This document shows, in pieces, positions 493-1,617 of a stretch of DNA of 13,052 nt. The notes below the pieces were generated by a model. The model saw only the letters and a list, made by a program, of their open reading frames with translations, did no database searches and had not been told where the DNA came from. Positions within the stretch are counted from its first letter, which is position 1, and each line of letters opens with the position of its first letter. The stretch comes from an uncultured Sutterella sp. Its GTDB lineage: Bacteria; Pseudomonadota; Gammaproteobacteria; Burkholderiales; Burkholderiaceae_F. The translations under genes were made by a program, and so were the position numbers. The stretch spans positions 1 through 13,052 of the forward strand of contig CAKQKT010000056.1 in NCBI GenBank assembly GCA_934249275.1. Reading direction: 5' to 3'.

Positions 493-661
493 AAAATAAG
501 CGGCGGATGCGCATTGCACGCATCCGCCGCTTTTCAGACCCCCAACAGCGCGGGCGGAGATGAACCCGCAAGACGGAAGGCGTTTGGCTCCTTCCTGCGC
601 CGCATCCCTCCGGACGACCCCCGAAGTCCTTGGATGGAGAGGTTTGGCGCTCGCTGTCGTT
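493..661 (-). ncRNA. Candidate Fur-controlled small RNA
   Basis: Predicted transcript of about 165-170 nt. It would start 6-8 nt after the CATAAT -10 box (complement of 668-673) and end in the T run after the 498-532 hairpin. Internal elements seen on the minus strand: a 6-bp GGAAGG/CCTTCC hairpin (around 571-591), a GCGGG/CCCGC hairpin (around 549-568), and a C/U-rich CCUCUCC segment near the 5' end (complement of 636-642) that could pair with Shine-Dalgarno sites but could also fold back on a downstream GGAGGG. A 23-codon frame (603-605 ATG to 534-536 TGA) has GGAGGG almost touching its ATG, too close for good initiation. No protein gene of family type is seen. The design resembles Fur-regulated sRNAs such as NrrF (about 150 nt) and RyhB. 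The function is inference; I do not recognise the sequence. Confidence 0.45.
498..534. terminator. Bidirectional rho-independent terminator
   Basis: Perfect 14-bp stem (arms 498-511 and 519-532) with a 7-nt loop. On the plus strand it is followed by four T (531-534) and sits 5 nt after the MFS stop codon. On the minus strand the stem is followed by a run of six T (complement of 491-496), which is the better T tract. It can therefore end the MFS transcript and also a leftward transcript coming from the Fur-type promoter near 661. Confidence 0.85.
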
Positions 662-672
662 GAACGTATTAT
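644..672 (+). promoter_or_regulatory. Rightward sigma70-like promoter sharing the -10
   Basis: TTGGCG (644-649, 4/6) and TATTAT (667-672, 5/6) are separated by 17 nt. The predicted start near 679 falls at the edge of the Fur-type box. The -10 element overlaps the -10 of the leftward promoter on the other strand, so the pair may act as one bidirectional promoter. Weaker than the leftward one because the -35 is poor. Confidence 0.35.
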
Positions 673-696
673 GCCTAAAATGAGAATGATTCTCAA
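668..696 (-). promoter_or_regulatory. Leftward sigma70-like promoter under Fur box
   Basis: On the minus strand TTGAGA (complement of 691-696; 5/6 to consensus) is followed by exactly 17 nt and then CATAAT (complement of 668-673; 5/6). The Fur-type palindrome at 681-695 covers the -35 box and part of the spacer, where repressor binding would block polymerase. The expected start point is near 661, leading into the candidate small RNA. Confidence 0.5.
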
Positions 697-767: not shown

Positions 768-806
768 AAAAAAAGAGGAGGCTTTCTTGTGGAAAGTCTC
801 CTCTCT
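768..806 (-). terminator. Terminator of bamD
   Basis: A 13-bp stem (774-786 with 792-804, one mismatch at 781/797) with a 5-nt loop. On the minus strand it is followed by seven T (complement of 768-774). It begins about 26 nt after the bamD stop codon. On the plus strand the hairpin lacks a T tract, so it works mainly leftward. Confidence 0.85.
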
Positions 807-831: not shown

Positions 832-1617
832 TTACTTGCGAACCTTGACGGTCTTGCCCTTGTTGAGCTCGAGCACTCGGCGCGTGTCTTCGGCGAGATC
901 GCGCATTTCAAGCTTGTCGTAGGAGTTCGCGATCATTTCGAGCGCGTCGTCGCGCATCGGCGTGTTCTGGAATTCGCTCACGACGCGCTGCGCATGCTGA
1001 ATGGCCGCGACATAAGCGTGTCGAACGTAGTAGTATTCTGCAACTCCAAGTTCATGCTTCGCCTGAGCCAGCACGAGCTGGTGCATGCGGCGGCGCGCCT
1101 CGGGCGCGTAGCGGCTGTCGGGGAAGCGGAGCGCAAGCTCCTTGAGAATGTCGAAGGCTTCCTGAGCGGCATTGGCGTCGCGTTCGGAAAGTTCCTGACC
1201 GGAAAGCTTCGCGAACCAGCCGTCATTTTCATTAAGCGTTGCAAGCGCCTTCAGATACATGACGTAGTCGCTGTTGGCGTGGTTCGGGTAGGCCTGCAGG
1301 AAGCGGTCGGCGCCCTGAACGGCCTGAGCCGCATCGCCGTCCTTCCAGTTCGCATAGATCAGTTCGATCTGCGCCTGCTGTGCATACGTTCCAAACGGGT
1401 AGCGAGCCTCGAGCTTGGTGTAATAGTTTTTTGCGTCGGTCCAGTTGCTCTCATCAAGAGCGGCTCGGGCCTCGGTATACAATTTGTCGGCCGACCAGTC
1501 TGCCGTCGGATCCCGGTCGAGGGATTCGAGCCAGGAGCAGGAGGCGGTCGCCAGCGTGATGGCCGTTACGGCCACCAGCCTCGCGGCGAAGCGCTTATTA
1601 GGAAACTTGAAATTCAT
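832..1617 (-). CDS. bamD: BamD, outer membrane assembly lipoprotein
   Basis: 261-residue essential subunit of the BAM complex that inserts beta-barrel proteins into the outer membrane; it acts on the periplasmic face and contacts BamA. The N terminus is a lipoprotein signal: basic residues, a hydrophobic stretch and a lipobox ending in Ala-Ser-Cys with Cys27; Ser at +2 fits outer-membrane sorting. The rest is helical and TPR-like, with typical BamD phrases such as RYPFGTYAQQAQ, FLQAYPNH and RFPDSRYAPEARRRM. Length is normal for the family (about 245-270). The ATG at 1617 is the only plausible start in front of the signal peptide. It shares two bases with the start codon of divergent rluD. In other proteobacteria bamD (comL/yfiO) is also divergent from rluD. 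Identification is secure. Confidence 0.95.
   Translation of the reverse strand: MNFKFPNKRFAARLVAVTAITLATASCSWLESLDRDPTADWSADKLYTEARAALDESNWTDAKNYYTKLEARYPFGTYAQQAQIELIYANWKDGDAAQAVQGADRFLQAYPNHANSDYVMYLKALATLNENDGWFAKLSGQELSERDANAAQEAFDILKELALRFPDSRYAPEARRRMHQLVLAQAKHELGVAEYYYVRHAYVAAIQHAQRVVSEFQNTPMRDDALEMIANSYDKLEMRDLAEDTRRVLELNKGKTVKVRK

Follow-up and report, generated by a model that had tools for sequence, protein, structure and literature searches.

The intergenic region beside bamD in the Sutterella window (the whole 13,052-nucleotide stretch analyzed) probably encodes, from 661 leftward to about 493, a structured, non-coding, trans-acting sRNA that would be controlled by Fur and would pair with mRNAs of iron proteins (rough probability 0.7, judged from sequence). 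That a real, conserved Fur-box sRNA gene is present at the locus is very likely in our estimate, and it is likely, from the sequence comparisons below, to be an iron-sparing regulator acting through GGGGUC. The most specific form of the proposal, an undescribed Sutterella sRNA family in which a Fur-box-to-terminator cassette is copied as one piece and twin exposed GGGGUC seeds shut down nitrate, DMSO-type, and hydrogenase metalloenzymes at low iron, is favored only slightly. The Fur-controlled sRNA proposed in an earlier note on this DNA is upheld as a trans-acting RNA because box, promoter, transcript, and terminator are conserved and duplicated together, paired positions change on both sides, no peptide is shared between the copies, and Rfam contains no match.

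The unit lies between an MFS-like gene and bamD, which converge on the intergenic region so that no protein gene starts at either side, and reading leftward from bamD the order is the bamD stem, the Fur palindrome, the promoter, the folded body, and the terminator (Table 1). The palindrome TGAGAATGATTCTCA is the sole match at two or fewer mismatches across the 13 kb window, with 0.03 expected and 6 of 200 shuffled sequences containing one, and this rarity together with its conservation rules out a chance Fur box. The leftward promoter TTGAGA-N17-CATAAT (696 to 668) has 10 of 12 matches and is the better of two promoter-like sites between 300 and 900 (0.1 expected). Its -10 element is placed 8 nt past the 13-base Fur core, a spacing seen for a -10-like hexamer in the window and in six related units. 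The convergent genes, the perfect palindrome covering the -35 element, and the promoter are therefore as the earlier note described them, and the terminator it placed about 165-170 nt downstream is present with its T tail, the stem being slightly longer than the 14 bp given there. The terminator may also serve the MFS transcript from the opposite side. The second promoter-like site, TTGGCG-N17-TATTAT (644-672, + strand), is directed rightward, is weaker, and overlaps the leftward promoter. An 87-codon TTG frame (433-696, - strand) spans the sRNA and enters the MFS gene antisense, with no coding signs seen.

Table 1. Features of the window around the predicted sRNA, numbered from the first letter of the window
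Feature	Positions	Strand	Basis or remark
MFS-like reading frame	ends 492; 5' part cut by window start	+	NCBIfam matches below cut-off
bamD	832-1617	-	TIGR03302 above cut-off
Further genes past bamD: rluD-like, pgeF, rimO, focA-like, fimV-like, truA, accD, folC			focA-like and fimV-like below cut-off
bamD terminator-like stem	~774-804; T tract 768-773		read by eye
Predicted Fur box, perfect 7-1-7 palindrome TGAGAATGATTCTCA	681-695		sequence; kept in relatives
-35 hexamer TTGAGA	691-696	-	overlapped by Fur box
-10 hexamer CATAAT	668-673	-	promoter scan
Predicted sRNA transcript, ~165-169 nt	493-661	-	start placed from -10, end from terminator
P1 closing helix, 5' strand CGACAGCG	652-659	-	predicted fold, covariation
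CCUCUCC	636-642	-	base-paired in P2, unconserved
P2 upper hairpin, GGAC-loop-GUCC	612-629	-	GAGC/GCUC in canine homologue, a two-sided change
Proposed seed 1, GGGGGUC in P2 hairpin loop	616-622	-	GGGGGGC in S. wadsworthensis copy 2
P1 closing helix, 3' strand CGCUGUUG	543-550	-	predicted fold, covariation
Proposed seed 2, unpaired GGGGUCUGA between P1 and terminator	534-542	-	predicted fold, alignment
Predicted intrinsic terminator, GC-rich stem then T tract	498-532	-	15-16 pairs, tail ATTTTTTA

The closest relative compared, Sutterella wadsworthensis 2_1_59BFAA (G001; BamD 95% identical to that of the window), has bamD and the convergent MFS gene flanking the unit as in the window. Identity inside the unit is 83.8% for box and promoter, 76.3% for the transcript, and 80.5% for the terminator; outside it the values are 46.4% from the bamD terminator to the box, 38.7% at the MFS end, and 52.1% at the bamD end. 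Box, promoter, and hairpins are thus conserved jointly (76-84% identity) in a related genome that keeps the flanking genes, as the reading in the earlier note implied. A blastn search of the unit against 29 genomes returns two full-length matches at 80% identity in S. wadsworthensis (C1 and C5), together with a match of 47 bases at the promoter end in a canine Sutterella MAG (G003), which proves to be the start of a complete unit. At E <=1 matches occur in 25 of the 29 genomes, nearly all of them short stretches and many corresponding to the Fur box. The two S. wadsworthensis copies align with each other at 75% from the Fur box to the T tract, and the likeness is confined to that stretch. The unit is dispersed, with copies between bamD and the MFS gene, between a sensor kinase and a convergent aminotransferase gene (the second S. 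wadsworthensis copy), and between adk and a FAD-linked oxidase gene (the canine copy; names in the latter two contexts by eye).

A covariance model of the transcript that leaves out promoter and terminator recovers only the two S. wadsworthensis copies and the canine copy from 67 family genomes, for each of which the best candidates of a first look, up to 50, were scored. A search for the twin-seed pattern finds the same three loci only, with its backward control matching twice. Behind bamD the box is absent from 28 of 29 relatives scanned, the single positive being S. wadsworthensis (29 of 80 loci fetched, L004 yielding 185 of 700 bases and L025 447 of 700), and a near-similarity search of plasmids shows nothing similar to 300-1700. 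Clear members of the design are present in 3 of 12 genus genomes, or 4 of 12 counting the L139 unit described below.

The exact Fur core GAGAATNATTCTC is present in 9 of the 12 genus genomes, at 16 sites in all; the backward control gives none. Two neighboring exact-core sites in MAG E21 bin84 (G007) head tandem units, each composed of a Fur box, a -10 element, a hairpin with GGGGUC in its loop, and GGGUCUC before a terminator. The pair (L129 1315-1785, G007:C2) is located between uvrA-like and galE-like genes (by eye), and its units are 84% alike. The covariance model R1 scores the pair at 8.0 bits with E 0.38, and it is therefore termed the same design, homology being unproven. Eighteen Fur-box sites, comprising the 16 exact-core sites plus L081 and L139, both added as already recognized, were read in 34 orientations. 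In six of these a -10 element at +8 is joined by GGGTC farther downstream and by a terminator with an energy below -20 kcal/mol (two each in S. wadsworthensis and E21 bin84, one in the canine genome, and L139 in G002), and the other 28 lack the combination. The L139 unit (1300-1525, - strand) has the Fur box, -10 element, and terminator, is without the loop motif, and lies upstream of an ABC transporter permease gene. In the canine genome a one-mismatch box lies 104 nt before an apparently similar permease gene, too close for the RNA. Other exact Sutterella Fur boxes (L122, L125, L127, L128, L130, and L131) stand shortly before reading frames, read by eye as peroxiredoxin-like, as a membrane protein and possible metal transporter, and as a protein beginning MSE...HPLA in three genomes.

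The position of the L139 unit before the permease gene, and a same-strand frame that begins 47 nt past the end of the canine unit (L082 1731), would suit an untranslated leader or attenuator of a neighboring gene rather than a free sRNA. We regard this as very improbable, since the next long gene is convergent in the window, at L081, at the second S. wadsworthensis copy, and beyond the E21 bin84 pair, and the element common to both S. wadsworthensis copies stops at the T tract.

The predicted fold of 492-661 on the - strand has an energy of -83 kcal/mol (z -3.67), equaled by 1 of 200 shuffled sequences, and the canine RNA folds with z -6.09. Helices P1 and P2 and the terminator are kept in all four aligned sequences, and a further small hairpin is absent from the canine copy. 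Paired positions are compatible with pairing in 96.3% of cells across the four sequences, compared with at most 47.3% when the structure is slid along the alignment. Two-sided changes occur at 11 pairs against 3.3 in shuffles, none of 500 shuffles reaching 11, in a test on four sequences from which the structure itself was derived. The segment GGGGUCUG, which follows P1 within seed 2, is identical in all four. According to this model the conserved exposed elements are two G-runs (GGGGUC) rather than CCUCUCC, which had been put forward in the earlier note as an anti-Shine-Dalgarno seed and is rejected because it is base-paired (P2) in the predicted fold and is not conserved, being lost from the canine homologue. 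The window does contain an ATG frame of 23 codons, immediately preceded by GGAGGG, that could be taken to encode a small iron-regulated protein. This explanation is scarcely credible and was discarded, as S. wadsworthensis copy 1 has no frame of at least 12 codons, copy 2 and the canine copy have different frames, none is common to the homologues, and the pairs covary.

In the mechanism that we infer, iron-loaded Fur would sit on the palindrome over the -35 element and block transcription; when iron is short Fur would leave and the RNA would be made, ending at the intrinsic terminator. The RNA is predicted to form a branched body closed by P1 that presents GGGGUC twice, in the loop of a hairpin and as an unpaired stretch ahead of the terminator. 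These runs, probably with Hfq, would base-pair with GACCCC sites located in the 5' UTR or first codons of transcripts that encode NapA, DMSO-reductase-type molybdoenzymes, multihaem cytochromes, and FeFe-hydrogenase, components of iron-rich anaerobic respiration, and the pairing would lower their translation as an iron-sparing response.

The putative targets were sought in the canine genome (2.695 Mb; 2,224 genes called by a simple script acting as a rough gene finder), with 40 iron genes selected by regex as multihaem, 4Fe-4S, or molybdenum-iron-sulfur proteins. GACCCC is found at -70 to +20, limits set after the hits had been seen, in 46 genes of which 7 are iron genes (0.8 expected, p 1.1e-5), placing it first of 4,023 hexamers. 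Between -70 and -6 it marks 31 genes, 5 of them iron genes (p 1.8e-4), and ranks third of 3,969 behind two Shine-Dalgarno words. A 6-base scan along the sRNA has both GGGGTC windows on top, and in 2,000 label permutations no sRNA hexamer reaches that value; with 7 bases a Shine-Dalgarno word and AGAGCAG come out ahead, and the seeds take third and fourth place (p 0.019 and 0.029). Hexamers with these six letters in other orders mark 881 genes, 22 of them iron genes. Near starts overall, AGACCC and CAGACCC are not enriched (38 against 49.9 expected and 7 against 9.7 expected). The GACCCC matches lie mostly upstream of the Shine-Dalgarno sequence.

Pfam annotation of the GACCCC hits at -70 to -10 describes 8 of 30 gene models (7 distinct genes, the DmsA gene in two pieces being counted once) as iron-related, the corresponding figure among 30 controls being 2 or 3 (Fisher p 0.04 to 0.09); a frame of low complexity located at a stretch border was left out from the 31 hits, as was one of the 31 controls. 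Of the iron-related models five are molybdopterin oxidoreductases, two of which belong to a single split gene, and the others are an iron-only hydrogenase, a cytochrome c3, and a NapC/NirT cytochrome. Two FAD_binding_2 proteins and one C4-dicarboxylate transporter are also among the hits, and the controls include one FAD_binding_2 protein and one C4-dicarboxylate carrier. The names NapA, DmsA, and FrdC were assigned by eye.

Comparison of orthologues gives a mixed picture. Upstream of napA, GACCCC is found at -31 in the canine genome and -33 in S. wadsworthensis, and is absent within -130 to +70 in G005 and G030; the G005 napA piece has one at -216, inside the preceding gene region. For dmsA it is at -23 in the canine genome and -64 in S. 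wadsworthensis, but it also precedes (at -21) a G030 relative of 53% identity. NapC carries it at -56 (canine), -82 (E21 bin84), and -75 (G005) and lacks it in S. wadsworthensis and G030. The FeFe-hydrogenase gene has it at -51 (canine) and -95 (E21 bin84), with none in S. wadsworthensis, G005, or G030, and FrdC has it at +5 in the canine genome and G005, with none in S. wadsworthensis, E21 bin84, or G030. Among 10 PF00384 matches in S. wadsworthensis, some of them pieces and some with unclear starts, GACCCC shortly precedes the start of napA and dmsA only. Counting orthologues with GACCCC at -70 to +20 gives 2 of 5 in S. wadsworthensis and 0 of 3 in E21 bin84 versus 1 of 4 in G005 and 1 of 5 in G030; the latter two are genomes in which no sRNA was detected and which may carry a diverged one. 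A RyhB-like function gains support from the enrichment of GACCCC at iron-protein starts in one relative, and the orthologues remain mixed.

Two further explanations bear on these data. GACCCC might be recognized as DNA by a regulator of anaerobic respiration, its link to the sRNA being coincidental, and 4 of the 7 iron hits do fall within about 25 kb around nap, while species without a detected sRNA have GACCCC near some of the same genes. Against this the enrichment is limited to the sense strand, the reverse complement giving 1 iron gene of 13 (a number with little power), and to -70 to +20, neighboring position ranges giving 0 or 1 iron gene each; on balance we consider a DNA site improbable. 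Alternatively, the Fur-controlled sRNA may have other targets or may not act via GGGGUC, using protein binding or other segments instead. Conservation of GACCCC is clear for napA only, is shifted in dmsA, and fails in S. wadsworthensis for NapC, FeFe-hydrogenase, and FrdC; a protein could be what the conserved G-runs serve; and words of the canine RNA complementary to the Shine-Dalgarno sequence (TTCTCC and TCTCCT) score for iron genes too. The TCTCCT segment is, however, absent from the aligned position in the window, and its hits may merely mirror strong Shine-Dalgarno sites, whereas GACCCC is the top hexamer, specific for strand and position, and the exposed G-runs are the conserved part of the RNA. 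Action through other targets or segments is accordingly held to be a minor possibility, and pairing of GGGGUC with iron-protein mRNAs the preferred reading.

The canine genome encodes a Fur-like protein with HHDH and CxxC motifs. It contains 26 Fur-core-like sites. The single exact GAGAATNATTCTC is that of the sRNA promoter; the remaining 25 deviate by one mismatch, several of them being intragenic, and they include boxes ahead of frames that by eye look like feoA, sodB, and a peroxiredoxin. An Hfq-like frame is split into two pieces 88% and 94% identical to an Hfq sequence used for comparison, and the split (G003:C1 432805-433015) is possibly an assembly error. Motif scans for Hfq, ProQ, and CsrA gave no match, and ProQ was not found in the search that recovered the broken Hfq.

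Among known systems, the unit most likely represents a new sRNA family within the class of Fur-repressed iron-sparing sRNAs, as judged by a perfect box over the RNA's own promoter that is kept in the homologues and by a predicted independent, non-coding transcript with an intrinsic terminator. RyhB, PrrF, and NrrF are Rfam families. No Rfam family is matched at the gathering score, in agreement with the earlier note, which did not recognize a known family; at E <=10 the region 470-760 gives nine matches, all far below the gathering score (best E 0.11), with RyhB, PrrF, and NrrF absent, and assignment to a known Rfam family was rejected on these grounds. PrrF1 and PrrF2 of Pseudomonas aeruginosa have their own Fur-controlled promoters and occur in more than one copy per genome, in tandem. 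The Sutterella units resemble them in having predicted Fur promoters of their own and multiple copies, and the tandem pair of E21 bin84 is reminiscent of PrrF1/PrrF2; they differ in the lack of an Rfam match and in the dispersed copies of S. wadsworthensis.

A literature search covering few subscription journals found no report of an iron-responsive sRNA in Sutterella. BrrF (ncS63) of Burkholderia cenocepacia, in the same order Burkholderiales, is an iron-starvation sRNA that lowers iron enzymes and acts on TCA-cycle and oxidative-stress genes, and for most of the targets tested its effect was weakened or lost when consecutive G residues close to its 5' end were mutated (PMC7377471). A review names it as the characterized iron sRNA of the Burkholderia cepacia complex (PMC10987360). 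The job at iron starvation would be similar. However, BrrF is a 126-nt RNA cut from the 3' end of hemP mRNA, has no Fur box of its own, and terminates in a run of U with no stem loop (PMC7377471), whereas the Sutterella unit has its own Fur-box promoter and a strong terminator, has bamD and an MFS-like gene as neighbors rather than hemP, and points to anaerobic respiration. RusT of Caulobacter is iron-responsive, but its authors found no Fur site (PMC11005374). RyhB of enterobacteria and NrrF of Neisseria are Fur-controlled, iron-starvation-induced sRNAs, with iron sparing by RyhB (in part after PMC11005374 and PMC11257911). The Sutterella RNA is set apart from both by the absence of Rfam similarity and by a G-rich double seed in a larger branched body. 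The closest functional parallel is IsrR, whose host Staphylococcus aureus belongs to a phylum unrelated to Sutterella. IsrR is Fur-controlled, inhibits Fe-S enzymes of anaerobic nitrate respiration, and uses repeated motifs of a single type, features that the Sutterella RNA would share, but its motifs are C-rich and pair with ribosome binding sites (PMC11257911), whereas those of the Sutterella RNA are G-rich. If the proposal is correct, it ties iron limitation, in a concrete and testable manner, to anaerobic respiration in a gut bacterium, with iron supply directly coupled to the choice of anaerobic electron acceptor, and adds another sequence solution to iron sparing, one built on G-rich rather than C-rich or anti-Shine-Dalgarno seeds.
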